Shown piece after piece: positions 4,782 through 64,000 of a stretch of 64,000 bases of DNA. How positions within the stretch are numbered: position 1 is the first letter of the stretch; each line of letters opens with the position of its first letter. Position numbers and translations under genes: made by a program. This DNA is from a virus. The DNA lies in IMG/VR virus record IMGVR_UViG_3300023174_000039, positions 267,655 to 331,654 of that record. One strand, 5' to 3'. The notes under the pieces are model-generated. The model searched no databases and was not told the origin of the DNA. It saw only the letters and a list, made by a program, of their open reading frames with translations.

Positions 4782-4794
4782 GCTATTATCCTAA

Positions 4795-6537: not shown

Positions 6538-6562
6538 GTCAGTTACCTGTTCCTGTTTTCAA

Positions 6563-6570
6563 TATTTATA
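6563..6570 (-). promoter_or_regulatory. Late promoter TATAAATA
   Basis: Exact T4 late consensus, 25 nt upstream of the fibre gene start at 6537. The box contains the TAA stop of the upstream 201-aa gene (6568-6566). Confidence 0.7.
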
Positions 6571-7171
6571 CAGCATTAATATTGCTTAATGTCTGTATAC
6601 GTAATGTATAATCAATTTGAATCTGTCGATTCAAACTTTTTTGCACTGGATGGAAGATCACATGCGTGATCAAACGTAGGTTATCTGCGCTTCCGTTCCA
6701 GGCTTTTAGTCCCAATTCGTCAAATACATATTCGCCATTGTAATTTGTTGAATTATCAAATGCTTGTTGTTCTGGCGGCTCGCCGTAGTCTAGCAAACAA
6801 CTTACCAAAATGTCTGTATAAACATTTCCAGATGTATGTAACACTGTCATTTTGTTGTTTTCTGGATCAGTATCTGCTGCCGAATTGTCGTTTATTACCT
6901 TGGCATAGGTTTGATTGTACAAGTCAGCATTTTGACCTGTTGTGTTTGGGGGCAAATATGTAATAACGCCCGTAGGGTCTACACTAGATCCACCGTTGCC
7001 AAACGCCATTTGATAGATATACCCGGTGTTACGATCAGCCAGAGTCTGGGCCATTGCAATTGAAATATTTTCGTAATGAATAGCATTATGATCATCATAA
7101 AAGATCTCACCACTTTTTGGGTCGTGTATCTTGACATGTCCTGTAATCTTGGCAAGTCCTGAAGTTATCAT
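6566..7171 (-). CDS. Putative virion structural protein
   Basis: 201 residues. The N-terminal segment reads ITGHVKIHDPKSGEIFYDDH and a MAFGNGGSSVDPTG motif follows near residues 55-68. Proteins of this kind sit in the tail/fibre region of aquatic T4-like phages (from memory); role not known. The N-terminus and the 50-aa product encoded just upstream both carry an '(I/V)xDPxT/S' strand, which suggests related small beta modules. Its ATG overlaps the TGA of the small gene (ATGA). Confidence 0.6.
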   Translation of the reverse strand: MITSGLAKITGHVKIHDPKSGEIFYDDHNAIHYENISIAMAQTLADRNTGYIYQMAFGNGGSSVDPTGVITYLPPNTTGQNADLYNQTYAKVINDNSAADTDPENNKMTVLHTSGNVYTDILVSCLLDYGEPPEQQAFDNSTNYNGEYVFDELGLKAWNGSADNLRLITHVIFHPVQKSLNRQIQIDYTLRIQTLSNINAV

Positions 7172-19300: not shown

Positions 19301-22150
19301 AACGTAGATTTTTACAGCTGGAACAATGCCGTCGCTTTGTGCTTGAATATCCAGCAACAAAGGTCTACCAGTGTAGGTAAATTTAAACTGTTGTCTAACC
19401 TGAGTTGGTGTAATTGCTGTGTTCCATCCTAGCAGTCGATCATACAATAATCTTGTGGCATACTCTCTAGGAAATCCAGAGCTGATGGACGAAGTTGTAC
19501 TAACGTTATCACGCACATATAAAAATGTATCTTTGTATAGATTATTTTCAAATACAATGTCACCAACGTTGTTCAAATTCAAATACTGTAACGGAAATTG
19601 TAAAATTGGATCTAATATACCTGTAGATCCTTCGGCATAACTGAATAATTTTGATCCAGCAAATGTTGTTGATGGGTATACTGCTTTGTTTCCAAAGCTC
19701 ACCCCATTGGCGTCGTACACATTGAACAATGGTGCTTGTTGAACTTTGGTTTTCAGTTGCGCTTTGGTCCAAACAACTCCATCATACCAAAATGTAATGC
19801 CTCTAAGAGTTGAGCCATCTAGACACACAGTACTCTCGTCGACTAATACATCACCGTCATTGGCCAGCGTCAAATTAATAACAGGCTGAGAAATTATTGG
19901 AGATATTGAATCGGGAGACACAAAATTAACAACCCAAATCTTATTTCGAACATTGGCATCTGCATCCTTGGCAAAGATAACTCGGCTGCCTTGAACAAAA
20001 TTGTATCCGTCTACGGTATAACCAGTTGACCCTTCTACATTACTAAACGCATCAGTTTCTGCAAAGTCAATGACATTGACCGGCTGTTTGCCTTCTGTAC
20101 CCATGTTGTACAACCGTAGTCCAGGGCGAAATTGAATAATTGGACGTTTGGCTCGGTACTGATTGTCAATGGTAACATCTGTATTATTGTATTTTGCAGT
20201 GGCGTTGATAACATCTATATGAAACCAGCGATTGCCTCTGGTCCAGGCATTGAGATCCAAGCTGGCACGGCTGATGGTTAGATAATCCAAATCTGACGGC
20301 TCTGATGCAAATGTACTGGTATCAGCATCTACCACATATGTTTCTGGGCAGATAAAATCTGTCACTGGCAACAACTTTATGGCCGTACCAACCCCACTGA
20401 TATAATATTCGTTGCCAATGTAACTTGCTGGCACCACATCTCCACGGAATACAATTTTCAACCCATTGGTAAACTCTACACCATTTGGGCTGGTATATGT
20501 TTTTTTGCCAATGATTTCATCAATGTACAAAGTAGAACTTTGTGATTGTTCAATCAGTCTGATTCGACCAAATATTCCTGGATCTGTCCCATCTTGATAG
20601 TACAACGTATCCTGCGACGCAGTCAGCAACGGTATTTGTTTAAACACCCCAGCATCGTTCTTAAACCATCCGGTACTGGCATAAGTGTTACCATACAAGA
20701 TAGTGAACTTTTCTAGATCATTGATAGTACCTACATTGGTTAGGCTAATGTAAATAAAACCATTATTATTAATATAGTTAATCTGCCAGATATCTCGACG
20801 CTGGGACAATGGTACTTCAGTTTGTTGTGTATATAACAAACTATCATATCCTCCCACTTGACTTGTACTGCCTTGTGACAACGGATCAAAGTATGTGGTT
20901 TTGGTCCAACCGCCTACATCAGTATCCAGTGATGTGCCTTCAAAAATCAGTGTTCTACCATCAAGTGCAGTGATGCCATCGATACCGCCGTGAGTGGCAA
21001 TAAAATCAGCCACAGTGATATTGTTGATTTGATCAAATCTCAAATCAGTCAATAAATCAACTGTGCCAATGCTGGGTAGATTATAGTAAAACTGTTGCGC
21101 AATTTTGGTAGGAGCGTTAAATGTTATGGTGCCAAGATCTTCTCCATTATTGGTTACACCATACACATCTCTAGAACTGATATTTGGGGTAGAGGGCATT
21201 TTTCCATTGAACCCTGGCGCGGCTTGAATCCAAAAGCCTGGACCAGTTCCTGGGGTACCATCAACAATGTTCAGTTGTCCACGCATGTTTGATTGCGTGG
21301 AGCTAGAATAGTACAAGGTATCTGGGGCGTCTTGGGGCACAACAAATGTTACCAATCCAGTAACAGCACCATTATTGGTTACACCTATACTGTAAACATT
21401 GTTTAGTCCTGTGGTTGCGGCTGTTTTAATATAGAACGGATACACACCATTTAAATTTAAATTAAACACATAGGTGTTGCCACGAACCAAAGTCAATGTA
21501 GGATTGTTAACATAGTCAATGACATATGCACTGGTTCCAGAATTAGTCACACGATAGTTTACAGTTTCTTTATCGTTTTGTGCCACTTGAAAAGTGTAAC
21601 TGCCGCCACGCACCAGATCAACTGTGGGATTATCTCCGTTAAGACCAGAGAATGTGTACACACCATTGGCTCTTGTGACTACAAAATTGTCCGATGCCGG
21701 AACTCCAGTCGCTGCCACATCTACTGCTCCTGGCCCGCCAGGTAGCCAAAAATACTGACTGAAGTTGATGAACGTATCCCAGTCAATGAATGGGTCCCAG
21801 GTATAGTATTCGCTTTCAAATAGTCTGTCAGGTCGTGCAGAATTGCCGCCTTGATATGCAATTGAATCCAGCAGGCCCGGGTAAGTGATAGCATCTTCAA
21901 TGGTATTGGTATCTGGCTTGAGACTGATAATACCTGGCTCAAGTTGATAATCAGCACGAGCTTTGGTTGGCTCTACGACATATTTTTCGTTGGGGTTAAC
22001 ACCTGGACCCACTGTGCGGCCAATGAATCCTTGAGTCTTTTTAAATTTGGGCTCTTGTATCAACTGATCCAGCGTGGCCGCTAGGAACTGTTTGTTTACA
22101 TCAGTCTGAAAAATTTCAGGTAAAAAATCTACGCTTCGTACTTTTGCCAT
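7340..22150 (-). CDS. Giant virion structural protein (4936 aa) with FG-GAP-like propeller
   Basis: 4936 residues, the largest gene here. The N-terminus (VDFLPEIFQTDVNKQFLAAT) matches giant baseplate-region proteins of aquatic T4-like phages (from memory). Much of the chain is made of repeated beta modules with a VDG..Q..G.DYTV pattern, as in phage fibres. About residues 2270-3105 contain seven FG-x-SV...GAP/GSP...VYVF segments, the signature of integrin-like FG-GAP beta-propeller blades. The C-terminus ends with a GNTDFTRIGA segment common in environmental phage fibres. Start overlaps the gp6 stop (TAATG). Likely a large baseplate-attached appendage or host-contact protein; this is inferred from position between gp6 and the fibres. 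No signal peptide or membrane helix. Confidence 0.8.
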   Translation of the reverse strand: MAKVRSVDFLPEIFQTDVNKQFLAATLDQLIQEPKFKKTQGFIGRTVGPGVNPNEKYVVEPTKARADYQLEPGIISLKPDTNTIEDAITYPGLLDSIAYQGGNSARPDRLFESEYYTWDPFIDWDTFINFSQYFWLPGGPGAVDVAATGVPASDNFVVTRANGVYTFSGLNGDNPTVDLVRGGSYTFQVAQNDKETVNYRVTNSGTSAYVIDYVNNPTLTLVRGNTYVFNLNLNGVYPFYIKTAATTGLNNVYSIGVTNNGAVTGLVTFVVPQDAPDTLYYSSSTQSNMRGQLNIVDGTPGTGPGFWIQAAPGFNGKMPSTPNISSRDVYGVTNNGEDLGTITFNAPTKIAQQFYYNLPSIGTVDLLTDLRFDQINNITVADFIATHGGIDGITALDGRTLIFEGTSLDTDVGGWTKTTYFDPLSQGSTSQVGGYDSLLYTQQTEVPLSQRRDIWQINYINNNGFIYISLTNVGTINDLEKFTILYGNTYASTGWFKNDAGVFKQIPLLTASQDTLYYQDGTDPGIFGRIRLIEQSQSSTLYIDEIIGKKTYTSPNGVEFTNGLKIVFRGDVVPASYIGNEYYISGVGTAIKLLPVTDFICPETYVVDADTSTFASEPSDLDYLTISRASLDLNAWTRGNRWFHIDVINATAKYNNTDVTIDNQYRAKRPIIQFRPGLRLYNMGTEGKQPVNVIDFAETDAFSNVEGSTGYTVDGYNFVQGSRVIFAKDADANVRNKIWVVNFVSPDSISPIISQPVINLTLANDGDVLVDESTVCLDGSTLRGITFWYDGVVWTKAQLKTKVQQAPLFNVYDANGVSFGNKAVYPSTTFAGSKLFSYAEGSTGILDPILQFPLQYLNLNNVGDIVFENNLYKDTFLYVRDNVSTTSSISSGFPREYATRLLYDRLLGWNTAITPTQVRQQFKFTYTGRPLLLDIQAQSDGIVPAVKIYVGSKFKDPGTYTLETTSNSSTITLDNTYAIGDIVEVLVLSDQTSQVAFYQVPINLENNPLNGNSDVFTLGTIRTHYESICENLITLSGKINGANNTRDLGNIGPYGLIILQQSSPLTLAGYFNRSKEYNIFAALQYNSREYQKFKDLLMNEVTNLTLYTETPAEILVEAMANITLGRLESNPFYWSDMLPSGSVYIENNYTVSLITTNVFDTVQVYNYTSSNYLGLLVYKNKALLTRGIDYTVATDGPRITVLVPLAIGDVISVQEYSATYGSFVPNTPTKMGLYPTFRPVITAIDTTSGSSEVIIGHDGSQTPVFGDVRDQVLLEFETRIYNNLKLDGNPVPINASDVIPGQFRNTGYSSQEINSILNVDFLSYVGWNKLDYNTQNYIVNNEFSWNYSGSQNKLSTGQNLIGSWRGIYRYFYDTQDPAKTPWEMLGFSIKPTWWETVYGVGPYTSENMVLWDDLEAGIVADPAGTYVLPAYVRPGLTQVIPVDTEGNLVSPFECVVGNYNETTFQKSWSAGDGSPVESSWRNSSAYPFAVMRLYALTIPAKFYALYADRDLYRYQAEFDQFLYNDRYRLDANGIQVYGDGTSKASFINWIVDYNRITGINSTSALEADLASIDVRLCYRLASYSDKQYIKLYTEKSSPNSLNATLLIPDESYDLLLYKNQPFDRLIYSSVVIQIVEGGYAVYGYSTTQPYFNILVSQSAGRLKPYTVGDVTVRVPTTYTNTVAQVPYGYVFTNQTSVCDFLLSYGKLLTDQGLTFDDRVNGYQLDWDQMVVEFLYWSQQGWENNCLINLNPLASALTITKPGAVVDSIVTQTSENVILDQNKRELPARNINIVRLDNTLTLQPLTDQSLSFADLRFTNFEHMIVLNNQSVFGDLIYQPITGARQSRLNFVGVTTTEWNGTVDAQGFILNQDNVEEWSGLKKYSKGQIVKYKDQYWSAQVIVDPSTDFDFNKWVKSDYNQIALGLLPNISNKANQLQNSYSINSANLENDNDLLSYGLIGFRPRQYMAALNLDDVSQVNVYSQFLGTKGTILSAELLSNANLGKESADYQIYENWAVQRAVYGANANRSFVELKLNRALLSANPSLVQVIQPQEQSQADQTILLDNVWRQSYKLTSPDFLPTTITQVTDTALPNAGYVNLEDADIATFDLGTRSTIAANLGLVSVGATVWVAKVNNYDWDIYRCVNIPGFIDHVCDNLDGTSIVNFTKPHGLSVGDRLIIKQFDTRIDGVYKVLTVQGINRVTIAYTFTPGGQTVINGVGIGFTLKTQRVRQASDIINLPYANDIQTGAKLWVDNDGTGHWEVLQKENQFSTVIELSPKLLDATEQYGQSVSQARNRFAALVGSPRYGFPTGAEKGAVYVYVKNYSDQYAPVSPVANGDAVLTLDTTGARGFGNAVEFGNQTWAVAGASKSLGPASQADVGYAAIIYRDPNLGKPGVIPYVSWQLLVSPNNTESGLFGHSVAISTDERWVYIGAPAANKVYAYGRVDWQDQFVKSRGDGVTKSFSIAQTIQINTATQLLVTLDGTQQLLGTDYTVDSGLATVTFATAPAVGVLVDIHRYNNKIIDGGNYYNVAQTSTSGSGTGAKFTIRRVRNEVGQPGSISGGVGVTAGGTGYAVGNTITFAASKFGGQANLVLTVVSVGAGGKVETFNIAYTPVTLTSTFSLNEYFFTVDNIYSFSVYVDTVLQRPGIDYTFNTSTQDMTFVNNPAAGTLISVQAQSYFEYVNTLTVAGLAADAQFGYSVTTTVDGRQVIIGCKDEDISGKVDAGSVYVFDRNVQRFDYGTDPSSTMFTVLGTVTAPVSVIVNNVFLVNQNNSIIGASNSFTVSGNDITINSDLQTGDVIEIETNQFTQMQKITKNTVTEYTNFGQSVDICVYSCSLYVGAPQDSTDGWKSGSVQRNVNQSRVYGSTVSLNQDPVLTPGHTLRVNNQDVVILFPTAEQTSLQRLAQSITETVPNVVASVSKGYLTIAVKNPASAAPGNKLQVAPGSVGSAFTTIGFNTFTYTQSIYSPYPVDFAGFGTSISIDDSAANLVVGSPRGTLYLITIFDDGTTDFDENSTIFFSEVVQSGAVYTYDYLASADETAANPGKFAFGLQITDSNVYPYDVYGASVSYVDGVLMVGASGSDATAADSSGSNYGRVFVFENATRMPAWTPIRVQQPVVDIRLLNSVFTYDRLTSARTQQFDFFDPLQGKILGAAKQNINYISAIDPAGYNVGPTNNSGNTWLADHVGQVWWDVSTVRFIDPNQDDIVYASRRWGQVFPGSTVDMYQWIQSSVPPATYTGEGKPLNVYSYTVSTKLSVDGTFNTYYYFWVKGLTTVATQQGKTLAPQTVANYIENPKASGIAYIAPVNASTVAIYNATTIIEAEDTVISVEFDREYTDNNVHVEYELIAQGKSDAFLSTNLYRKLQDSFCGVDTAGNLVPDPTLNDAERYGVQFRPRQSMFVDRFAALKNYIVRTNNVLSLYPIVENRSLLLLNSREPEPPSTTGGIVNWNLRVANLEILSFQDISLVPFGYKYLVDSDSRNNGLWTIYTVQNGQGALVGTKELVLTRVQNYDTRRYWSYVNWYRPGYNSSTKVIAEVPNYSALATITVPVGSSVKVTANAQGKFEIYLLTDLGWERVGLQDGTIEISAEIYNYALGRFGFDVEVFDAQYFDQEPVIETRKIIQAINEELFIDELALERNKALTLMFNFVLSEFSAPEWLVKTSLIDVDHNIRNLAPFQNYRRDNQEFVLDYVKEVKPYHVQIREFNLRYNGQDEYGGDVTDFDVPAYYNTSLVVPQYTSPILNIDDTTDPRYQEPYLHSTHQQDNTLSDTPPSSLVWQAWPYSQWYNHYLLNLQLIKVITGGSGYTEPPTVTLDGDATTPATLQAFLGPVNASGTASVLYVAIIDEGSGYYATPNVIFSGGNGSGARAYALMNNDLVRSFKTVIKYDRYQYHTNILTWTANVTYENGTLVRYDDQVWRAANPTGTSVTSATFNLEDWQLVPANELSGVDRTMGYYIPGVNEPGLDLPLLIDGTSYPGVQVWGDYFLGSDPTSTQLECTATSADNNQITCTNTLGLQATAPIKFLGTTIGGIEQDVNYFVKDIVDQTHFTICAKVGGFTIELTTATGSMQAISLQMLDATYSSSFRDVYLGTRYSDINIDGGKFIGMYEGYAPEELVNGSEFDTLDIRVYTRPGSDWTLYDNIAGSNGHGFQITSRRYTYSLSNTELNWNGLVENPVHLEISNVSSGIDLVPNIDYVVDWVARTVAMRSGVTSGDIINITAYELGGGSQLYRQNYVGDKVGNKLIVPVNSTEIYQAVLFVNGVYTAVNSWEPYYPASIWNQLNTYSTLDVVYTTGPTTYYRALQNVIAGIDIHNTAYWQQFVPTTLSKIALNRVYTSTDALNITILGFTTPKQYSWSTPQTEYFTVTSAINASKTVNLANSVAGTNIPNMIVEINGVRLRPYEGIEWIGDNSTTSFGLPQRGGYQQSIINPVTDITVFVDNVLQVQSFGSITGDYSVTNWNGSNTPGRQVQFVTAPDYGARILISVSVAAAYYVAGSQLQLISPPSVGSIIAVTTFNDTSQQNILTQVYQGPVVGGVVIDEPYDSTAFDTGVVNNDPGSYAYSEGIPLLSNQFDLGRLGVDASRLWVTLNGYRLFDGQDYTVQGQYVIFASGAIASSDIAVIQEFTNSIVPEAMAFRVFQDMRGVQATYRITTNSTTELVQPLSSIADIMYVLNASNLSEPDLTNGVFGVCTIGGERIMYRYRNTALNTISGLMRGTAGTAAAEHIIGTPIYDMGRGNLLGEQYQDHIIKDDTLADGSTTIFYAPSIYLPIVDPKDSSTVYIDHSIEVYVGGTRQYPITEVNTPSQYRYTVFTVDPVVPGDPYTIGVEFITDNDPYHPLLAPAAGVSVTIAQRRGYFWYGNGIVQKATTAIAGESYFINAVGNTDFTRIGAAENTVGILFTATGPGTGTGTISTVSNGIALQQTNTQAARFLRGL

Positions 22151-53212: not shown

Positions 53213-54409
53213 ATGTCAGAACCATTGTTAGAAAGTCGCTGGGGCGAAACCAAAGAAGCATTGCTCGAAGGTTTGAACGGTACCCGTCGCAATTCCATGA
53301 GTGTGATCCTTGAGAACACACGCAAGTACTTGAAAGAAAATGCATCCGCAGGTTCCACAAGTTCCGGCAACATTGCCACATTGAACCGCGTGATTCTTCC
53401 CGTGATTCGACGTGTTATGCCAACCGTTATTGCTAACGAGTTGGTTGGTGTTCAGCCAATGACTGGTCCAGTTGGTCAGATCCATACTCTGCGTGTACGT
53501 TATGCACAGAGCTTGACTGATACATCAGCAGCCGCAACCAGCGTCACAGCTGGCCAAGAAGCCCTGAGCCCATTCACTATTGCTACTGCATACTCTACAG
53601 TACCAAGAGACACAGCTACAGCTACATCATATACTGGTAACAACACAGCAGTGATGGAAGGCAACGGCGGTAAGCAAATTTCCGTCCAAATCTTGAAGCA
53701 AGCTGTTGAAGCCAAGACTCGCAAATTGCAAGCTCGTTGGACATTTGAATCTGCACAAGACGCACAAGCCATGCACGGTATTGACGTTGAAGCAGAAATC
53801 ATGGCTGCTTTGGCTCAAGAGATCACAGCTGAGATTGACCAAGAGATCTTGTTATCTCTACGTAGTCTGGCTGCTACTGAGTTCACATACAACCAAGCTA
53901 CTGTATCAGGTACAGCCACATTTGTTGGTGACGAACATGCCGCATTGGCTGTTTTGATCAACCGTGTTGCTAACTTGATCGCCCAACGTACACGTCGTGG
54001 CGCTGGTAACTACGCTGTTGTATCTAGTGCCGCATTGACAGTGTTGCAATCTGCAACTACTAGCGCATTTGCACGTACTACAGAAGGTACTTTTGAAGCT
54101 CCTACAAACACCAAGTTTGTGGGTACATTGAACGGCGCTATGCGTGTGTTCGTTGACTCTTATGCCAGTGACACAACACCTGTGTTGGTTGGTTATAAGG
54201 GCTCTTCAGAAGCTGACGCTCCTGCATTCTACTGCCCATACATTCCATTGATGAGCAGTGGTGTTGTGTTGGATCCATCAACATTCGAACCAGTCGTGAG
54301 CTTCATGACGAGATATGGTTACATAGAATTGACAAACACCGCATCGAGTTTTGGTAATGCGGGCGATTATGTTGGCGAGATCGCCGTGAGTAATTTGTCT
54401 TTCAGTTAA
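53213..54409 (+). CDS. gp23: Major capsid protein gp23
   Basis: 398 residues (T4: 521), the HK97-fold shell protein. Conserved segments include NIATLNRVILPVIRRVMPT, ANELVGVQPMTGPVGQIHTL and a C-terminal FMTRYGYIELTN. A candidate gp21 cut site is LKE|N at residues 40-43, which would remove a 42-residue propeptide (inference from the (I/L)xE rule; T4 removes 65). Strong Shine-Dalgarno TAGGAG; a weak TTTAAATT box lies 14 nt upstream. Followed by a strong terminator. The gene lacks room for the T4-type insertion domain. Confidence 0.95.
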   Translation: MSEPLLESRWGETKEALLEGLNGTRRNSMSVILENTRKYLKENASAGSTSSGNIATLNRVILPVIRRVMPTVIANELVGVQPMTGPVGQIHTLRVRYAQSLTDTSAAATSVTAGQEALSPFTIATAYSTVPRDTATATSYTGNNTAVMEGNGGKQISVQILKQAVEAKTRKLQARWTFESAQDAQAMHGIDVEAEIMAALAQEITAEIDQEILLSLRSLAATEFTYNQATVSGTATFVGDEHAALAVLINRVANLIAQRTRRGAGNYAVVSSAALTVLQSATTSAFARTTEGTFEAPTNTKFVGTLNGAMRVFVDSYASDTTPVLVGYKGSSEADAPAFYCPYIPLMSSGVVLDPSTFEPVVSFMTRYGYIELTNTASSFGNAGDYVGEIAVSNLSFS

Positions 54410-54435
54410 TCACTGCAAGGCTTCCTCAAAGCACC

Positions 54436-54460
54436 AAAAAGCACCTTCGGGTGCTTTTTT
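54436..54460 (+). terminator. Rho-independent terminator after gp23
   Basis: Stem AAAAAGCACC / GGTGCTTTTT with a TTCG tetraloop and a T6 run. It closes the head gene block. Confidence 0.92.
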
Positions 54461-54461
54461 G

Positions 54462-54490
54462 TTGACAAAAATATCTAAAAATGTTATTGT
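54462..54490 (+). promoter_or_regulatory. Sigma-70-like promoter for the GIY-YIG gene
   Basis: A perfect TTGACA (54462-54467), 17-nt spacer and TATTGT (54485-54490), directly behind the gp23 terminator. It would give early transcription of the nuclease gene with a leader of about 30 nt. Confidence 0.55.
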
Positions 54491-54514
54491 TATTAGCAGA
54501 AATAGCACTCTCAA

Positions 54515-54522
54515 ACTAAATA
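54515..54522 (+). promoter_or_regulatory. Late-type box ACTAAATA (leaderless arrangement)
   Basis: Six of eight match, ending five bases before the ATG at 54528; no Shine-Dalgarno is present. Confidence 0.3.
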
Positions 54523-54527
54523 ACAAT

Positions 54528-55283
54528 ATGAAACCTTATACCTATCTAATTAAACATCGACCAACAGGCAAAATCTATTATGGCTATCGTTCTGCTAACA
54601 AAGTAGACCCACAAGAGGATTTATGGAAACATTACTTTACAAGTAGTCCGGGAGTACAAAAGCTGATTGAAGAAACCGGGACCGATAGCTTTGATGTAGA
54701 AATACGCAGGACATTTGAAACCAAAGAACAGGCAAGTAATTGGGAAACAAGAGTTCTCAAACGCTGTCGAGTATTAGAAGATGACCGCTGGATAAATCAA
54801 AATGTAGCTGGATACATTGTACCAACAGAAGAAAGCAGAAAGAAGATTAGCGAGTATCACAAAGATAAACCTAAGAGTGAAGAACATAAACTGAATTTAA
54901 GCAAATCTCAAAAAGGAAAACCCAAGATAAACAGCAAAAATCAGACGCCTGAATATAGAGCACTGATGTCTAAACTTAAATCTGGACCAAACAACCCAAT
55001 GTATGGCAAAGGGTGTACCGAAGAAAGAGCTAGAAAAATAAGTGAAGCCAATAAAGGACGCAACGCACCTAACAAAGGTGTGCCCATGAGCGAAGAACAA
55101 AAACAAAAACTCAGTCAAAGAATGAAAGGGCGTAAAGTTGATCCTGAAGTGCTAGCCCGCAGAGTAGCATCTCAAACTGGTCAAACCCGACCCAAGCTGT
55201 ACTGTGCTCACTGCAAGCGAAACATAGCTCAAGGTTGGTTCCACCGACACGGTGATAACTGTAGCAGTCAACCCACAGCCTGA
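54528..55283 (+). CDS. GIY-YIG homing endonuclease with NUMOD3 motifs and zinc finger
   Basis: 251 residues from the ATG at 54528, preferred over an upstream ATG at 54459 inside the terminator because the domain begins at PYTYLIKHRPTGKIYYGYRS. That is the GIY-YIG core; NWETRVL supplies the catalytic Glu. The middle holds two or three NUMOD3-type DNA-binding motifs (SEEHKLNLSKSQKGKPK; PMYGKGCTEERARKISEANK; MSEEQKQKLSQRMKGRK), and the end is a C2HC-like finger (YCAHCKRN...WFHRHGDNC). Free-standing homing endonucleases next to gp23 may bias inheritance of this region in mixed infections (inference). Confidence 0.85.
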   Translation: MKPYTYLIKHRPTGKIYYGYRSANKVDPQEDLWKHYFTSSPGVQKLIEETGTDSFDVEIRRTFETKEQASNWETRVLKRCRVLEDDRWINQNVAGYIVPTEESRKKISEYHKDKPKSEEHKLNLSKSQKGKPKINSKNQTPEYRALMSKLKSGPNNPMYGKGCTEERARKISEANKGRNAPNKGVPMSEEQKQKLSQRMKGRKVDPEVLARRVASQTGQTRPKLYCAHCKRNIAQGWFHRHGDNCSSQPTA

Positions 55284-55344: not shown

Positions 55345-55373
55345 AAAAAGCTGTAAAAAACAAGGAAACACAT

Positions 55374-57413
55374 ATGCCATTATCAATCGGACCTGGCTGG
55401 AGCATTGGCCCTGGATGGAGCATTGGGGGAGGCGGAGCCGCCCCTGCTGTCGCAACTGATCCGTACTTCATGTACAACTCGCTGTTGCTCACAGGAGATG
55501 GTACTAATCTCTCACAAAACAACACGTTCTTGGATTCAAGTACCAACAACTTTGCCATCACACGAGCAGGCAATACCACACAAGGCACGTTCTCTCCTTA
55601 TGGCACCAACTGGTCAAATTACTTTGATGGGTCTGGGGATTTTTTGACTGCGCCAAGCAATGCCGCATTTAATGTTAGCAACACATGGACAGTTGAGTGC
55701 TGGTATTACCCAGTAAGCAGATCAAATACATATCCATGTATTATCTCACTCTCAGATGGCAACTATGCAAATTCAATAGTTCTATTTGATAGACATGCTA
55801 GTTCTTCTACTAAGTTTTCTTTTGCCGTTGGATCCGCTGCTCTTAATTCAGGCACAACCAACGTTGTTGATGGCACATGGTATCATATAGCTTTAGTTAG
55901 CAATAGTGGTGTTGTTACTATGTATGTCAATGGCACTGCAGAGGTCACAGCAAATGTAACTGCTGGTGCTGTAAGTAAATCTGTTTATATTGGTGCAAAT
56001 TTTGATTATGCGTCTTATGCAACATACATCAATGGTTATATCAGCAATGCCAGAGTTGTTAAAGGTACCGCAGTTTATACAGGTAATTTTACCCCAAGTA
56101 CCACACCACTAACAGCAATCACCAACACAAGTTTATTAACCTGTGCTGCCAGTCGTTTTATTGATAACAGTACTAATAACTTTACTATTACCAAGAACGG
56201 TGATACCGCAGTTCAAAGATTTTCACCATTTGAGCCCACAGCCGCCTACTCAACCAGCACAATCGGTGGGTCAGGATACTTTGATGGCTCAGGTGATTAT
56301 TTGAGCGTTGCAAACAATGCAGCATTTGCCTTGGGATCTGGTGACTTCACTGTTGAATGTTGGTTTTATATGAACAACACATCAACTGCAATGTGTATGT
56401 TTGAGAATCGTCCAAGTAATACAGGTAGTGGAATTAATATGTTTGTCAATTATTCTGCGGCTGGACAAGTTCAATATAGAGACGTTACCGGCGCACCAAT
56501 TTCATCATCTATTACAGTATCAGCAAATACATGGAATCATTATGCATTAGTGCGTAGTGGTTCAACAATTACACTTTGGATTAACGGTCAAAGTGGCGGC
56601 ACTGTTACAAAAACAACAAACTTTACTGATACTACTTGTGTATTGGCGCAAGACCAGGGAGGCGGATTTAACTTTGCCGGTTATCTAAGTAATTTTAGGA
56701 TTGTTAAAGGCACTGCTGTTTATACAAGTGCATTTACACCAAGTACTACACCACTAACAGCCATTGCAAATACAAGTTTATTAACTGGCTTTACCAACGC
56801 AGGTGTCATTGACAATGCCATGATGAACGACTTGGAAACAGTTGGTGATGCAAAAATATCTACCACACAATCAAAGTTTGGCGGTTCAAGTATGGCGTTT
56901 GATGGTACTGGTGATTACTTAACACAACCAAGCTCACAAAACTTCAATTTTGGATCAGGCGATTTCACAATGGAGGGATGGTTTTACCAAACAGGTTTGT
57001 CATCGTCCTACCCTGGTATAGTTTCAAATCCATTAGCTTGGGGCAATGCAGGTGCGTGGGCAGTTTTATCTAGCCATGCCGCATCCGGAGTAAGAAAATT
57101 ACAATTTTATTGCTACAACGCTGACCAATCTAATCCTTTACTGTTAGGAACAACATCATTATCTGATAATACTTGGTATTATTTTGCACTAACTAGATCA
57201 GGCACAACCTTTAGATTGTTTTTGAATGGGACACAAGAGGCGACAGCTACATTTAGCGGATCCGTTACTAGTGTAAGCAGTGGTCTTGTTGTAGGTATTA
57301 ATCAAACGGCTTATGCGTTTCAAGGTTACATAGACGACCTCCGCATCACCAAGGGATACGCCAGATACACCACCACATTCACGCCACCCACAGCGGCACT
57401 ACCAACTTATTAA
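55374..57413 (+). CDS. Adhesin-like protein with three LamG/ConA-like domains (copy 1)
   Basis: 679 residues. After the leader SIGPGWSIGPGWSIGGGGAA come three concanavalin A-like (LamG type) domains at about 60-245, 280-470 and 500-679. Each shows YFDGSGDFL, then (T/F)(V/T)(E/V)(C/G)W, W(Y/N)H(I/Y)AL, a VNG turn and GYIS/D...R(V/I)xKGxA.YT...FTP. LamG domains bind glycans or proteins, so this is likely a virion adhesin or fibre for host attachment (inference). It starts a five-gene cassette whose members alternate with glycine-rich proteins. AAGGAAAC Shine-Dalgarno. Confidence 0.8.
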   Translation: MPLSIGPGWSIGPGWSIGGGGAAPAVATDPYFMYNSLLLTGDGTNLSQNNTFLDSSTNNFAITRAGNTTQGTFSPYGTNWSNYFDGSGDFLTAPSNAAFNVSNTWTVECWYYPVSRSNTYPCIISLSDGNYANSIVLFDRHASSSTKFSFAVGSAALNSGTTNVVDGTWYHIALVSNSGVVTMYVNGTAEVTANVTAGAVSKSVYIGANFDYASYATYINGYISNARVVKGTAVYTGNFTPSTTPLTAITNTSLLTCAASRFIDNSTNNFTITKNGDTAVQRFSPFEPTAAYSTSTIGGSGYFDGSGDYLSVANNAAFALGSGDFTVECWFYMNNTSTAMCMFENRPSNTGSGINMFVNYSAAGQVQYRDVTGAPISSSITVSANTWNHYALVRSGSTITLWINGQSGGTVTKTTNFTDTTCVLAQDQGGGFNFAGYLSNFRIVKGTAVYTSAFTPSTTPLTAIANTSLLTGFTNAGVIDNAMMNDLETVGDAKISTTQSKFGGSSMAFDGTGDYLTQPSSQNFNFGSGDFTMEGWFYQTGLSSSYPGIVSNPLAWGNAGAWAVLSSHAASGVRKLQFYCYNADQSNPLLLGTTSLSDNTWYYFALTRSGTTFRLFLNGTQEATATFSGSVTSVSSGLVVGINQTAYAFQGYIDDLRITKGYARYTTTFTPPTAALPTY

Positions 57414-57422
57414 GGAACACAC

Positions 57423-58346
57423 ATGGGATTCACAATCGGCCCTGGATGGGCAATTACAGGGGCATGGGCCATTGGCGACACTGGGGGCGGAGCCTCAGTC
57501 ACACCCACAGTGGAATACTTGGTGGTTGCCGGCGGAGGTGGCGGAGGTGGTAAAAATACCGGTGGTGGTGGAGGTGCAGGTGGTTTTAGAACAGCCACCG
57601 GATTTGCAGTCACATCCGGTACACCTATCACAGTCACAGTTGGCGCAGGTGGCGTTTCAGCTGCAACCACCACTCAAGCATATGGTGGCAACGGTGGCGA
57701 TTCAGTGTTTGGCACTATTACCGCCACTGGTGGTGGCGGAGGTGGCTACGGTGTAGGCGCAGGTCAACGTGCAGTTGCTGGTAAAGCCGGTGGTTCAGGC
57801 GGCGGTGGTGGTGGCGATGACACAGGCGGACCATATTCAGGAGGTGCAGGTAACACACCATCTACTTCGCCAGTGCAAGGTTATGCTGGCGGCCAAGGAA
57901 ATTCACCCGGAGCCAATGGCGGTGGTGGCGGTGGATCATCAGCCGCGGGCGAAAACGGCATTGTGAATACTCGTGGTGGAAATGGCGGAGCAGGAACAGC
58001 AAGTTCAATATCTGGAACAAGTGTGACTTACGCCGGTGGCGGTGGTGGTGGTGGTAATGCAACTGCTGGCGCAGGCGGTTCTGGTGGTGGTGGCGCAGGA
58101 GGCGCAGGCAATCCAGGAGGCGCAGGAACTGCAGGAACCCCTAATACTGGAGGCGGTGGAGGTGGTTGCGGTGGTTACGAAACCAGTAACGCATCTGGTG
58201 CAGGTGGATCGGGTATCGTGATCATTCGTTATCCAGATAGTTATGCAGCCGCTACTGCCACAACAGGGTCACCCACTATCACAGTAGCCGGAGGCTACAG
58301 AGTGTACAAATGGACCACTGTGGGTTCAGGATCAATAACATTTTAA
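57423..58346 (+). CDS. Glycine-rich adhesin-like protein (copy 1)
   Basis: 307 residues. Leader MGFTIGPGWAITGAWAIGD shares the IGPGW motif with the LamG proteins. Then VEYLVVAGGGGGGG begins a long Gly-rich region with GGGGGG runs separated by short polar loops, and the end reads GSGIVIIRYPDSYAAA, then GGYRVYKWTTVGSGSITF. Such proteins are common in environmental phages. The glycine-loop style recalls the T-even gp38 adhesin, whose polyglycine sandwich carries receptor-binding loops; homology is not shown. AAGGAA Shine-Dalgarno, nine bases after the previous stop. Confidence 0.75.
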   Translation: MGFTIGPGWAITGAWAIGDTGGGASVTPTVEYLVVAGGGGGGGKNTGGGGGAGGFRTATGFAVTSGTPITVTVGAGGVSAATTTQAYGGNGGDSVFGTITATGGGGGGYGVGAGQRAVAGKAGGSGGGGGGDDTGGPYSGGAGNTPSTSPVQGYAGGQGNSPGANGGGGGGSSAAGENGIVNTRGGNGGAGTASSISGTSVTYAGGGGGGGNATAGAGGSGGGGAGGAGNPGGAGTAGTPNTGGGGGGCGGYETSNASGAGGSGIVIIRYPDSYAAATATTGSPTITVAGGYRVYKWTTVGSGSITF

Positions 58347-58360
58347 TCGAGGAAACACAT

Positions 58361-60373
58361 ATGCCATTATCAATTGGACCCGGCTGGAGCATTGGCCCTG
58401 GATGGAGCATTGGAGGAGGCGGAGCCGCCCCTGCTGTCGCAACTGACCCCTACTTCATGTACAACTCATTGCTGTTGACCGGAGACGGAACTAACAATGC
58501 CACAAACAACACATTTGTAGATGGTTCAACCAACAACTTTAGTATCACTCGCAACGGTAATACCACACAGGGCACCTTTTCACCATATGGTGCTAATTGG
58601 AGTAACTACTTTGATGGTAGTACCTCTTATCTAACAACAGCATCTAGTTCAGCCCCGTCTAGTGATTTTACACTGGAGGCATGGATTTATAGGACGGCTG
58701 CAACAACTGCTGTTATAATTGGTTATGGATCGGAAACAACCGGTCGTACATTTATGTATGTTACATCGGGCGGCAGTTTAGCTACAAGCATTTATAATAT
58801 AGGAGACACTACATTTGGTGGATCAATTCCTCTAAATCAATGGACTCATATTGCCATGGTTCGCTCAAGTAATGTAATTACGGGCTATATAAACGGCACT
58901 GCTCAAGCAACAACGACATCAACTGCTACAACTGTAGGGAATACAGGTGGGTTTGGGGTGGGAGCCGGAAAAGACGGTTCAAACAAATTTACAGGATATA
59001 TTTCTAATGCTAGGGTAGTCAATGGAGTTGCAGTTTACACATCAGCCTTTACGCCAAGTACAACGCCACTAACAGCCATAGCAGGTACAAGTTTGTTGAC
59101 CTGCCAAAGCAACAGATTCAAAGATAACTCATCAAATGCATTTGCATTAACTGTGTCAGGCACCCCAACCGTGCAAGTGTTCTCACCATTCAGTCCCACC
59201 GCAGCCTACTCAGCAAGTACAATCGGTGGGTCAGGATACTTCGATGGCGCAGGAGATTTTTTAACAGCTCCAGCAAACACTGCATTCAATTTGGGCACTG
59301 GCGACTTTACCATTGAATGTTGGGTTTACTTGACAAATTCGACGGCCACTACTCAAAGCATTATGGGTATTGGTGACACTGGAGCAACCAATGATATTCA
59401 ACTTTGGTATAATAATGTTGCCAACAAAATCACATTTAATGTGTATGGCAACCCCAGATTTGATTCTAGTTCCAATGTCACTACCGGCAATTGGATACAC
59501 CTAGCGTGTACCCGCGCATCGGGTGCATTCAAGCTGTTTATTAATGGTGTACAAGAGGCCGCTGGCTCTCTAGGCAACAATTTATCAAACAACGTGCTGG
59601 TCATTGGCAGACCTTACGCATCACTTCCAAATAATGAATATTTTTATGGTTACATCAGTAATCTTCGCATTGTTAAAGGCACCGCGGTCTACACCTCGGC
59701 CTTTACACCACCTACCTCACCGGTCACTTCAATCAGTGGTACCAGCATATTAACCAACTTTACCAACGGTGGTATTATTGACAATGCAATGATCAACAAC
59801 TTGGAAACAGTGGGTGATGCCAAAATATCCACTGCACAATCAAAGTTTGGCGGTTCAAGTATGGCGTTTGATGGTACTGGCGATTATCTAGCCGTATCTC
59901 CTAATGTAACTAATAACTTAGGCACCGGTGATTTCACAATTGAAGCATGGATATATCTAACATCGGCCTCTACATATCAATTTTTAATAGGTAGTAGCAA
60001 CAATGTTAGTGGCTACATGATGGTTGGACTAAACGTACCGCTTTCCCCAACATCAACTATTGCTTTAGGTACGTCTGGCCAGACTTGGCCACTACAATTT
60101 GGAACAGGCACAACATTTACATCAAATACGTGGACTCATATTGCTATCACTAGATCAGGCACAACAAATAGAGCATTCATCAATGGAGTCCAACTTGGTT
60201 CTAATGTAACCGATTCTACTAATTGGACATTCCCAAGTAATACAATGTGGATAGGTAACCAATCAGGCGGAAATTCCTTGAACGGTTACATAGACGACCT
60301 CCGAGTAACCAAAGGCTATGCACGTTATACAAGTAACTTCACGCCTCCCACTGCGGCACTACCAACTTATTAA
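58361..60373 (+). CDS. Adhesin-like protein with three LamG domains (copy 2)
   Basis: 670 residues from the ATG at 58361, which follows GAGGAAAC and encodes the same leader (SIGPGWSIGPGWSIGGGGAA) as copies 1 and 3; an upstream in-frame ATG at 58310 lies inside the preceding gene and is rejected. Three LamG-like domains as in copy 1, with conserved junctions (FTPSTTPLTAI, GGSGYFDGAGDFLTAP, NNLETVGDAKIST) but different domain bodies, especially in the first and third. Conserved ends with variable bodies indicate duplication followed by divergence or recombination. Confidence 0.8.
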   Translation: MPLSIGPGWSIGPGWSIGGGGAAPAVATDPYFMYNSLLLTGDGTNNATNNTFVDGSTNNFSITRNGNTTQGTFSPYGANWSNYFDGSTSYLTTASSSAPSSDFTLEAWIYRTAATTAVIIGYGSETTGRTFMYVTSGGSLATSIYNIGDTTFGGSIPLNQWTHIAMVRSSNVITGYINGTAQATTTSTATTVGNTGGFGVGAGKDGSNKFTGYISNARVVNGVAVYTSAFTPSTTPLTAIAGTSLLTCQSNRFKDNSSNAFALTVSGTPTVQVFSPFSPTAAYSASTIGGSGYFDGAGDFLTAPANTAFNLGTGDFTIECWVYLTNSTATTQSIMGIGDTGATNDIQLWYNNVANKITFNVYGNPRFDSSSNVTTGNWIHLACTRASGAFKLFINGVQEAAGSLGNNLSNNVLVIGRPYASLPNNEYFYGYISNLRIVKGTAVYTSAFTPPTSPVTSISGTSILTNFTNGGIIDNAMINNLETVGDAKISTAQSKFGGSSMAFDGTGDYLAVSPNVTNNLGTGDFTIEAWIYLTSASTYQFLIGSSNNVSGYMMVGLNVPLSPTSTIALGTSGQTWPLQFGTGTTFTSNTWTHIAITRSGTTNRAFINGVQLGSNVTDSTNWTFPSNTMWIGNQSGGNSLNGYIDDLRVTKGYARYTSNFTPPTAALPTY

Positions 60374-60381
60374 GGACATAT

Positions 60382-61326
60382 ATGGGATTCACAATCGGGC
60401 CCGGATGGGCAATTACAGGTGCATGGGCCATAGGAGACACAGCAGGAGGCGGTGGTGGATCAACTGTTCCTGCTGAATTTTTAGTTGTTGCCGGGGGCGG
60501 TGGCGGTGCTTATGCCAGTGGTGGGGGTGGTGGCGGCGGAATAGTACATGCTGTCACAGCAAATTTCACAATGTCAACGGCGTATACTATCGCTGTTGGT
60601 GACGGCGGTGCCGGAACTAACTCGGCAAGTTTTGCAAGTTCAGGACAAAACAGTTCCATAGTAGGAACCAGTATCAACGCTGTTGCACTTGGAGGCGGAG
60701 GAGGTGCTGCCTATAATAATACAGGTGTAGCCGGCGGATCAGGTGGCGGCGGTGGATACAACTTTGGAGTTGTTGCACAAATTGGCGGAGCATCAACACA
60801 AACTTCTGGAAGTTATAACGGATATGGATCAGCTGGTGGAAGTTCAATTGATAGCCAATCACAGCCATTTTCAGCAGGTGGTGGCGGAGGTGCAGGCGGC
60901 CCAGGTGGGTCAGTTACTTCTGCCACCGGTATTGCAGGTGTAGGCGGGGTCGGACGTGCATTTAGCACATCTGGTACTTCAACATATTATGGTGGCGGTG
61001 GTGCAGGTGGTGCCGGGGGCAGCCTATATACAACACCTATAACAACAGCCGCATTAGGTGGTGGTGGAGTTTGTGGTGGCAACGGTGGTGGTACCGCTAT
61101 GAATGGTACACCAAATACAGGTGGTGGTGGTGCAGCCGACAACAGATCAACGGGCAATAATTACAATGGTACCTTTGGCAACGGTGGATCGGGTATCGTG
61201 ATCATTCGTTATCCAGACTCATATGCAGCCGCAACTGCCACTACTGGCAGCCCAACAATCACCGTCGCAGGTGGCTACAGAGTCTACAAATGGACCACTG
61301 TGGGCAGTGGCTCAATAACATTTTAA
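60382..61326 (+). CDS. Glycine-rich adhesin-like protein (copy 2)
   Basis: 314 residues, paralogue of the 57423 gene. Leader (GFTIGPGWAITGAWAIGDT) and the last ~45 residues (from GSGIVIIRYPDSYAAATA) are practically identical to copy 1, while the Gly-rich middle differs in length and in the polar loops between GGGG runs. That pattern fits a receptor-binding protein in which the loops are variable. Nine bases separate it from copy 2 of the LamG gene. Confidence 0.75.
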   Translation: MGFTIGPGWAITGAWAIGDTAGGGGGSTVPAEFLVVAGGGGGAYASGGGGGGGIVHAVTANFTMSTAYTIAVGDGGAGTNSASFASSGQNSSIVGTSINAVALGGGGGAAYNNTGVAGGSGGGGGYNFGVVAQIGGASTQTSGSYNGYGSAGGSSIDSQSQPFSAGGGGGAGGPGGSVTSATGIAGVGGVGRAFSTSGTSTYYGGGGAGGAGGSLYTTPITTAALGGGGVCGGNGGGTAMNGTPNTGGGGAADNRSTGNNYNGTFGNGGSGIVIIRYPDSYAAATATTGSPTITVAGGYRVYKWTTVGSGSITF

Positions 61327-61342
61327 TCGAGGAAACATAAAC

Positions 61343-63433
61343 ATGCCATTATCAATTGGACCCGGCTGGAGCATCGGCCCTGGATGGAGCATTGGAGGAG
61401 GCGGAGCCGCCCCTGCGGTCACAACTGACCCGTACTTCATGTACAACTCACTGTTGCTCACAGGTGATGGTACAAATCTCTCACAGAACAATACCTTCCT
61501 AGACTCAAGTACAAATAATTTTACTATTACCCGCAATGGCAATACCACACAGGGTACATTCAGTCCTTATGGAAGCAATTGGTCTTTGAGTAATCCAAAC
61601 ACTTCGGATAATGGCATTGGAGTTGCATCGAATGCCGCATTAAATCTTGGAACTGCTAGTTTTACAGTTGAATGCTGGGTGAACCTGAATGCGTTACCAT
61701 CATCGAATGTCTGGACCACATCTGCTGGCGGCTACCAAGCGTTATTTGGTACTGGTCCTAGCAATAGCGCCACAGGATCACAACTGTATATTGGAACCAC
61801 AAACTTATTTTTTGACACAACGTCTGACGGAAGTGGACCAATCAGTGTTGCACACGGAATGACTGCTGGAGTTTGGTATCACATTGCTCTTACTCGTAGC
61901 GGCAATACTTTTGCCTTGTACAAAAATGGTGTGCTACTTCAATCAGCTTCTGATGCAAGCTCAATGACTTCTGGATATGGATGGGGCATTGCTAGACCAG
62001 AACCAGTTGGATCATACTCCGGCGGCTGGTTAAATGGATACATATCTAACTTTAGACTGGTAACTGGATCAGTTGTGTATGTCGGAACATTCACACCGCC
62101 CACAACACCACTTACTGCAATCTCTGGAACTCAATTGTTATTATGCCAGAGCAACAGATGGATTGACAACAGTTCAAATAGTTTTGCTGTCAGCGTTGGT
62201 AGCACTGCACCAACTGTACAACGATTCTCACCATTTGAACCCACAGTCGCCTACTCATCAAGTGTGATTGGTGGGTCAGGCTACTTTGATGGCACGGGGG
62301 ATTATTTGACTATCGCCAGATCAAATCTACTTATACCAGTTGCCAATGAAAATTTTACAATAGAATCGTGGGTTTATTTAACACAAGCCGCAGACCAACA
62401 GATTGTTGGATTTCATACACAGGGCGTAAGTTCAGACTGGCTTATATCTATAAGTAGTACAAATTATACTACATTTTATATTAGTGCTACTGCCACAAGT
62501 GTGACATCTAGTATTGCTGTACGATTAAACACTTGGAATCATATTGCGGTTGTGCGTACAAATACAAACACCATTACTTTATATGTAAATGGAGTTGCCG
62601 GGGCAACTACTACAACTACTTCAACGATGGTAGGAAATGGATCTAACCCATTGACAATTGGATCAGACTATAATGGTGTTAATTGGAGGTATACAGGTTA
62701 CATTTCTGATATTCGTATTGTCAAAGGTACAGGAGTCTATACCTCAAACTTTACTCCACCAACTGCACCATTAACAGCAGTTGCTAATACCCAACTCTTA
62801 TTAAGTTACACCAACGGTGGCATCATTGACAGCACAATGATCAACAACTTGGAAACAGTTGGTGATGCAAAAATATCTACCACACAAAGCAAGTTTGGCG
62901 GATCCAGCATGTACTTTGATGGCAATTTAGATTATTTAAACGGCGGAGTAAATTCTGGTTACAGTTTTGGATCAGGAGATTTCACTATAGAGTCTTGGGT
63001 ATATATTGTTGCTAGAGGAAGCAGCGGGTCATGTTTTGCTGGAACTTGGGCAGCTAGTGGTAGAGGATGGATCTGGCTTTCTAACCCCACTCAGTATGGG
63101 TTAGTGTATAGCACCAATGGTACTAATGAAACTGCTATATATTCAACCTACACAATACCTTTAAACACATGGACACATTTGGCTACCGTTAGAAATGGAA
63201 ATACTATTACAAACTATGCAAATGGTGTTAGTATTGGTACTGGCTCTGTTACTGGGGTTACGATTAGTACGCCTACTCAACCACTTTATGTAGGAGCCAA
63301 TAAGCAAGACGTTGATAGTAGTATAAACAATTATCAAATGAACGGTTATATGAACGATTTTAGAATAACAAAAGGTTATGCACGTTACACAGCCAACTTC
63401 ACACCCCCAACTGCAGCATTGCCTACACAATAA
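61343..63433 (+). CDS. Adhesin-like protein with three LamG domains (copy 3)
   Basis: 696 residues with the same leader and three-domain layout. In the first domain the usual YFDGS opening is replaced by NWSLSNPNTSDNGIG, but VECWVNL, WYHIAL and LNGYISNFRLVTGS remain. The last gene of the cassette; there is no third glycine-rich gene, the next gene being a metallophosphatase. Shine-Dalgarno GAGGAAAC. Confidence 0.8.
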   Translation: MPLSIGPGWSIGPGWSIGGGGAAPAVTTDPYFMYNSLLLTGDGTNLSQNNTFLDSSTNNFTITRNGNTTQGTFSPYGSNWSLSNPNTSDNGIGVASNAALNLGTASFTVECWVNLNALPSSNVWTTSAGGYQALFGTGPSNSATGSQLYIGTTNLFFDTTSDGSGPISVAHGMTAGVWYHIALTRSGNTFALYKNGVLLQSASDASSMTSGYGWGIARPEPVGSYSGGWLNGYISNFRLVTGSVVYVGTFTPPTTPLTAISGTQLLLCQSNRWIDNSSNSFAVSVGSTAPTVQRFSPFEPTVAYSSSVIGGSGYFDGTGDYLTIARSNLLIPVANENFTIESWVYLTQAADQQIVGFHTQGVSSDWLISISSTNYTTFYISATATSVTSSIAVRLNTWNHIAVVRTNTNTITLYVNGVAGATTTTTSTMVGNGSNPLTIGSDYNGVNWRYTGYISDIRIVKGTGVYTSNFTPPTAPLTAVANTQLLLSYTNGGIIDSTMINNLETVGDAKISTTQSKFGGSSMYFDGNLDYLNGGVNSGYSFGSGDFTIESWVYIVARGSSGSCFAGTWAASGRGWIWLSNPTQYGLVYSTNGTNETAIYSTYTIPLNTWTHLATVRNGNTITNYANGVSIGTGSVTGVTISTPTQPLYVGANKQDVDSSINNYQMNGYMNDFRITKGYARYTANFTPPTAALPTQ

Positions 63434-63452: not shown

Positions 63453-64000
63453 ATGGTTATGGATACCAATAATTCTATAACTCAACAAAAAATATATCGC
63501 AGTATTTTTATTAGTGATGTGCACCTTGGCACAAAAGATAGTCAAGCTGGCAAATTAAATAACTTTTTAAAACATAATACTTGCGATACTCTTTATTTGA
63601 TAGGTGATATTATTGACGCATGGCGAATACAACAAAACAAATGGCGATGGAAACAAAGTCATACCAATGTTGTTCGCCGTGTTTTAGGTCATGCAAAACG
63701 TGGAACACGCGTTGTCTACATTGCAGGCAATCATGATGAATTTTTAAGACCAATGATACCATATGGATTCAGTTTTGGTCTAGTAGAAATTCATAATCAA
63801 ATAGAACACATCGGTGCTGACGGTAAGCACTATTTAGTAACGCACGGAGACTTGTTTGATGGTATAACAAGATTGGCACCGTGGATAGCATTTTTAGGAG
63901 ATAAAGCATATGACTTCGTTCTTTCACTCAATAGCAAGTTCAATTGGATACGCCATCGTATGGGTTTTGGGTACTTTAGCCTTAGCAAGTTCCTTAAACA
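63453..64000 (+). CDS. LpxH-like metallophosphatase, N-terminal part (cut by window edge)
   Basis: 182 codons open to the end of the window; a second ATG two codons later is an alternative start. Calcineurin-like metallophosphatase motifs appear in order: FISDVHLGT, GDIIDAW, GNHDEF and THGDLFDG. The GDxxDxW and GNHDE versions match the UDP-2,3-diacylglucosamine hydrolase (LpxH/LpxH2) type rather than gp47. LpxH cuts a lipid A precursor, so a phage copy could alter the host envelope, but related bacterial enzymes act on other substrates. It sits right after the adhesin cassette. Confidence 0.75.
   Translation, partial: MVMDTNNSITQQKIYRSIFISDVHLGTKDSQAGKLNNFLKHNTCDTLYLIGDIIDAWRIQQNKWRWKQSHTNVVRRVLGHAKRGTRVVYIAGNHDEFLRPMIPYGFSFGLVEIHNQIEHIGADGKHYLVTHGDLFDGITRLAPWIAFLGDKAYDFVLSLNSKFNWIRHRMGFGYFSLSKFLK

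Follow-up and report, generated by a model that had tools for sequence, protein, structure and literature searches.

LamG and Glycine-Rich Genes with a Common Tag Next to the Capsid Gene of a Jumbo Phage: A Probable Part of a Recombining Host-Recognition Island

Array of LamG and Glycine-Rich Genes

The window analyzed here makes up the final 64 kb of a virus contig of 331,654 bp, and positions refer to the window unless the contig is named. The gene for the major capsid protein, of the gp23 type, lies at 53,213–54,409 on the plus strand (Pfam Gp23, E 1e-96) and is the left border of a variable island. Its product is 61–66% identical to the capsid proteins of the jumbo phages PA5oct, Vibrio 2.275, XaC1, and Phosso, and on this sequence identity the source phage is assigned to the jumbo T4-like myoviruses. 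A gene for a SegE-like GIY-YIG/NUMOD3 endonuclease (54,459–55,283, plus strand; Pfam NUMOD3 and SegE_GIY-YIG) is placed between the capsid gene and the array. Its reading frame begins with TTG, and an ATG is present at 54,529.

The array consists of five genes on the plus strand with intergenic gaps of 8–16 bp: LamG1 (55,374–57,413, 679 aa), Gly1 (57,423–58,346, 307 aa), LamG2 (58,361–60,373, 670 aa counted from the conserved ATG), Gly2 (60,382–61,326, 314 aa), and LamG3 (61,343–63,433, 696 aa). LamG1 has an IGPGW tag and three LamG domains, and Gly1 has an IGPGW tag and a glycine-rich body; both are supported by Pfam and by AlphaFold2 models, and the other three genes by their open reading frames and Pfam. 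The first gene after the array encodes a metallophosphoesterase (63,453–63,998, plus strand; Pfam Metallophos) and is cut by the contig end. The repeat unit is ~2.98 kb, with direct repeats spaced 2987 and 2982 bp, and no inverted repeats were found in the array region. The alternation of three triple-LamG genes with two glycine-rich genes in a unit of ~3 kb, as given in the preliminary description of this DNA, is thus borne out by the reading frames, the Pfam matches, and the repeats.

Each LamG gene contains three Laminin_G_3 stretches (Pfam, E 3e-51 to 3e-64). In a fold search, the predicted LamG structure matches the LamG domains of laminin and neurexin with E down to 2e-16. The Laminin_G_3 profile and the jelly-roll fold place the LamG genes among the LamG/concanavalin A-like lectins. 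Gly1 and Gly2 match Pfam Gly_rich_2 at 65 and 50 bits (curated cut-off 24.3). Across 43 sequences, invariant glycine blocks alternate with variable loops. The cassette copies are ~50% identical to one another in protein and unequal in length, and the variable bodies differ across their whole length, with indels. The ~50% identity and the length differences rule out that the cassette is an assembly artefact of one repeated gene, and the variability of the domain bodies noticed earlier is confirmed. The Rfam search gave no matches. A late-promoter scan with TATAAATA gave 4 matches versus 2.3 expected, none of them before the array.

In total, ten LamG domains of the contig score above the Pfam cut-off: the cassette has nine of them, and one is in a truncated fourth LamG gene (LamG4), which lies at the contig start, outside the window. 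There are three glycine-rich genes. The third one, Gly3, and a tagged 102-aa gene are located at 101.4–104.2 kb of the contig; Gly3 is about 220 kb from the cassette, on the opposite strand. One genome therefore carries seven complete or partial LamG/glycine-rich adhesin genes. Gly3 is adjoined by a gene for a sodium:dicarboxylate symporter family protein beside one for a family 3 solute-binding protein (L130 8734–10,887, minus strand; about 104.7–106.9 kb of the source contig), a pair of possible auxiliary uptake genes.

N-Terminal IGPGW Tags

IGPGW is encoded at ten sites in the contig, all of them at the starts of seven genes: the three LamG genes of the array, the three glycine-rich genes, and the gene for the unrelated 102-aa protein. 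The reversed control pattern has zero sites in the contig. Every LamG, Gly, or 102-aa gene of this genome with an intact start carries the tag. Other phages, too, tend to have one tag in common between the LamG and Gly genes of a contig, and this tag varies from phage to phage. The mean within-contig similarity between LamG and Gly tags is 0.414 versus 0.231 ± 0.031 after permutation of the contigs, and 0 of 2000 permutations are as high (11 contigs, some of them mutually related). A hexad pattern covering IGPGW-like tags, composed after the tags had been seen, is present within the N-terminal 40 residues in 27 of 245 LamG/Gly ORFs versus 4 of 4122 other ORFs. Three of these four are IGPGW-tagged genes already identified, and the fourth follows the capsid gene of L096. 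The AlphaFold2 models have low confidence in the tag, while the bodies are well predicted.

Homogenized Joints and Linkers

The starts, ends, and inter-gene joints had been described as nearly identical at the DNA level. This holds for the LamG genes over their first 90 nt, which are 92–96% identical, but not further on: the following 90 nt are 64–87% identical (79–86% for the block of the first 242 nt), the joint from Gly to LamG is 85% identical over 155 nt, the ends of LamG1 and LamG2 are 79% identical, and the end of LamG3 is 61% identical. Two conserved linkers inside the LamG genes, absent from the earlier description, also belong to the similar blocks. An exact repeat of 46 bp, longer than any other in the cassette, lies in the second of them. 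All exact matches of at least 25 bp between cassette copies fall in a tag, a joint, or a linker. Even the distant Gly3 shares exact matches of 50 bp (tag) and 35 bp (C-terminus) with Gly2.

These blocks were compared by a synonymous measure that counts only codons for the same amino acid, with 79 LamG genes of other phages for comparison. The tag block of LamG1 (codons 1–40; 55,374–55,493, with copies at 58,361–58,480 and 61,343–61,462) shows differences among the three copies of 16% (codons 1–20) and 29% (codons 21–40) versus 67–72% to other phages. The linker block between domains 1 and 2 (56,211–56,304, copies at 59,171–59,264 and 62,216–62,309; repeat family D5) shows 27% (codons 281–300) versus 57%. 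The linker block between domains 2 and 3 (56,679–56,917, copies at 59,648–59,886 and 62,696–62,934; repeat family D2) shows 23–33% versus 48–66%, and 19–36% by pair in codons 481–512. Over all LamG joint columns, the difference between phages is 48–72%. Outside the joints, the LamG copies mostly differ in 40–75% of such codons. Codons 41–80, just after the tag, are well conserved in protein and synonymously saturated.

The glycine-rich genes, including the distant Gly3, show the same pattern. Their tag (57,423–57,482 in Gly1, copy at 60,382–60,441) is 26% different versus 62% between phages. In the C-terminus of Gly1 with the joint to LamG2 (58,203–58,357, copy at 61,183–61,337), the first 20 codons, codons 261–280, are 23% different versus 60%, and 0 of 400 random sets of three genes are as low. 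For the LamG linkers, 2–4% of random sets are as low; each linker alone is moderately unusual and is weaker evidence. In other arrays, homogenization is present in several and weaker or absent in several. The low synonymous difference in the joints, 15–36% overall, and the ~50–70% in the bodies indicate that the joints are homogenized within the genome and that the bodies are not recent copies.

The regular 3-kb unit would also be expected from plain tandem duplication, in which three copies have drifted apart and their starts, ends, and linkers are alike from protein constraint alone. The joints are indeed protein-conserved in all phages compared. But in tags and linkers, codons for the same amino acid are far more alike among the copies of this genome than across phages, and the adjacent, equally conserved codons 41–80 are saturated. 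Protein constraint alone as the cause of the alike joints is contradicted by this synonymous pattern, and no nucleotide-level constraint common to all phages was found at the joint columns. The second domain of LamG1, described below, is moreover closer to a domain of another phage than to any paralogue. Simple duplication is thus an unlikely history of the cassette.

Bodies Shared with Other Phages

The bodies of the cassette are no more identical to one another than to the bodies of unrelated phages. The body of LamG1 domain 2 (56,292–56,774, plus strand) is common with domain 1 of L021 (89% identical in protein, 80.5% in DNA), and L020 and L012 are also close; the best paralogue is 49% identical. 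The identity to L021 collapses near codons 303 and 467, between two homogenized linkers. An end-to-end alignment of LamG1 and L021 hid this match, the domain being at a different position, and a local DNA search revealed it. The body of Gly1 is 70% identical in DNA to L136 over codons 31–262, again between two homogenized islands. The LamG4 fragment resembles L139 in two parts: its linker matches the last linker there at about 99% identity, and its domain matches the first domain there at 85%. The switch point is the shared motif YFDGTGDYL; this fragment is at the contig end and could be an assembly chimera. Since the bodies are as distant from each other as from those of other phages, the comparison suggests that import from a wider pool counts at least as much as exchange among the three copies of the cassette.

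Mosaic Sister Arrays

The array comparisons rest on metagenomic contigs. Three arrays, L156, L173, and L214, are 91–94% identical in their flanks and shared stretches and contain 7, 6, and 8 glycine-rich genes, respectively. Among genes that share a tag, the tag sequence is nearly identical and the C-termini are mostly similar, but the identity of the bodies ranges from 100% to about 40%. L156 begins with a mosaic gene: its first half matches L214, and part of its second half matches L173. The different copy number and the mosaic structure are what the preliminary description proposed to look for in related genomes. L226 and L227 agree at 99.6% over 7.6 kb, after which they split at the linker between domains 1 and 2 of their third LamG gene, a divergence to be taken with caution because L226 ends shortly beyond. 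L156 also contains a Gly/LamG hybrid, an 812-aa gene (4160–6598) with a Gly-like start and end and LamG similarity inside. A locus search for relatives with LamG3 as the query found none. A tblastn search of Gly1 against isolated phages gave no match, for which low-complexity filtering is possibly responsible.

Variable Island between the Capsid and NUDIX Genes

The DNA similarity to the near relative L050 (88.6%) ends at 54,412, 3 bp past the capsid stop codon. At the contig start, the stop codon of LamG4 marks the beginning of the similarity to L151 (87.9%). The flanks are thus 88% identical in DNA to those of relatives, and nothing is shared inside. LamG/Gly genes follow the capsid gene in 4 of the 26 relatives with at least 5 kb there, and none were found in the other 22. 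To judge from these comparisons, the interval from the capsid gene to the NUDIX gene is a variable island, with replaced content between conserved flanks as in host recognition islands.

The NUDIX gene of PA5oct and the next two genes are homologous to genes at the start of the source contig. Both contig ends (63,453–64,000 of the window and 1–1205 of the contig) seem to be within one capsid–NUDIX interval, and the contig is therefore probably a circular map linearized inside the adhesin island. The array is at the contig end, and the right-hand portion of the island is absent from the contig.

Fibre genes are found in the interval of L133, L200, and L151. At the island position, L151 encodes a protein of 856 aa with a Gly body at its end. 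The island of L133 contains a long tail fibre gene (Phage_T7_tail match), followed by genes for two IGPGW-tagged proteins of other types, and that of L200 contains two Gly genes and a one-LamG gene. Adjacency to a long tail fibre gene is seen in L133 and probably in L200; no such neighbor is visible in the source contig, where the island is incomplete. In PA5oct, the capsid–NUDIX interval encodes a putative tail fibre that is annotated as detected by mass spectrometry. Relatives of the SegE-like endonuclease follow the capsid gene in 15 of the 62 relatives with at least 1 kb there; this endonuclease may promote exchange at the island by adding breaks.

Interpretation

We consider the cassette to be part of a recombining host-recognition island, extending from the capsid gene to the NUDIX/tail block, which would encode tag-docked adhesins with exchangeable bodies (probability of roughly 0.68). 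Each gene would combine a short genome-specific N-terminal tag with an exchangeable body: three LamG lectin-like domains, a glycine-rich domain, or, more rarely, another type. Through the tag, the proteins probably attach to a single shared site of the virion, most likely a tail fibre, and the bodies may bind host surface structures. Homologous recombination in short conserved blocks (the tag with the upstream joint, the two LamG linkers, and the C-terminus of the glycine-rich genes) would keep the joints alike within a genome and permit replacement of bodies from the phage's own copies or from other phages. A RecA-family gene is present in the contig, and the exchange could proceed via the phage's own RecA-like system.

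The architecture, the shared tags, and the replacement of the interval are observed and support this reading. Joint-localized exchange is supported because synonymous homogenization is confined to tags, linkers, and joints, shared bodies are bounded by joints, and sister arrays are mosaic. The idea that the copies exchange modules is upheld to this extent, although a picture of the three copies alone is too narrow. From the domains, the locus, and the relatives, we infer that the products are virion receptor-binding proteins; the same evidence, together with the fold, points to their incorporation into the virion and their docking by the tag.

The array genes directly follow the capsid gene, and LamG proteins belong to many PHROG families with a virion structural or baseplate annotation. 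The products might therefore be decorations of the capsid or tail, glycan-binding or particle-protecting, without a role in host choice, and their variation would reflect loose selection or immune-like escape. This seems improbable to us, although it deserves more weight than simple duplication: tail fibres are encoded in the same interval of PA5oct, L133, and L200, and the long interval protein of L151 ends in a Gly body. Constant starts with variable bodies are typical of dedicated diversity generators, by which retroelement-driven mutagenesis or invertible DNA varies genes. Such a generator is very improbable here. No reverse transcriptase, as a diversity-generating retroelement has, was detected in the contig, and no resolvase or tyrosine recombinase, as an invertible fibre locus has; the region lacks inverted repeats, and the differences between bodies, indels among them, extend from end to end. 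The most economical explanation of the data is general homologous recombination at the joints, both among the copies and with phages infecting the same cell.

It can be speculated further, with more doubt than belief, that the tag is a genome-specific docking code. Any tagged body, LamG, glycine-rich, or other, would then fit the same virion site, particles could carry mixed, interchangeable adhesins, and the joint DNA would be a recombination platform loading bodies from a pool common to unrelated phages.

Comparison with Known Systems

The array resembles the distal tail fibre locus gp37/gp38 of T-even phages (T2, PP01, and S16), in which glycine-rich motifs alternate with hypervariable segments and a detachable adhesin has an N-terminal attachment part. 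As related in papers citing the original work, recombination between conserved motifs of the T-even fibre locus swaps adhesin parts. However, T-even phages have one gp38 per phage, whereas the array has many genes per genome and two main body types, and gp38 has a helical attachment domain instead of a hexad tag of roughly 20 residues. The alternation of motifs is that of gp38-type polyglycine II tip adhesins, but gp38 (S16 6F45, PP01) is absent among sequence matches to E 1 and fold matches to E 10.

Glycine-rich tips are known from gp38 of S16 and PP01 and from gp24 of Pam3. Among solved structures, only those of the tail fibre protein gp24 of cyanophage Pam3 (PDB 7ypx, 7yfw) come near the profile or model of Gly1, and the similarity is weak (sequence E 0.14–0.18, fold E 3e-3, TM 0.34–0.40). 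The glycine-rich distal domain of gp24 is the proposed receptor binder. Unlike the array, gp24 is a single gene with an alpha-helical N-terminal docking domain.

The host recognition clusters or metaviromic islands of marine phages are likewise islands in the structural module that vary between close relatives, and they contain tail fibre, lectin-like, and concanavalin A-like genes. The papers on them describe variable islands, and no common N-terminal tag or homogenized joints were found there. The branched multi-tailspike complexes of Ackermannviridae are similar in having several receptor-binding proteins per phage and in being an evolving complex. Their tailspikes are in one branched complex, whereas the array encodes short-tagged LamG and glycine-rich proteins.

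A title- and abstract-level search of the literature for tail adhesins with LamG domains, lectin-like fibres in jumbo phages, and gene conversion among phage fibre paralogues gave no such arrays, a weak negative as subscription papers are mostly outside its coverage. We found no description of an array of many genes in which a single short, genome-specific tag is common to several body types and the joints are homogenized within the genome. Modular swaps of receptor-binding parts are already known in phages, mostly as one gene changing between isolates. The signature of homogenized joints and saturated bodies separates module exchange from simple duplication quantitatively. The tag-by-body rule allows cheap listing of the adhesins of an uncultured phage, prediction of interchangeable bodies, and a test for combinatorial adhesin sets in phages.

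Two other genes of the contig are worth recording. An unusually long single reading frame of 4936 aa is located at 7340–22,150 of the window on the minus strand and matches a PHROG virion structural protein family. Near the contig start (L005 7016–8986, minus strand), a 656-aa protein with B12-binding and radical SAM domains is encoded.
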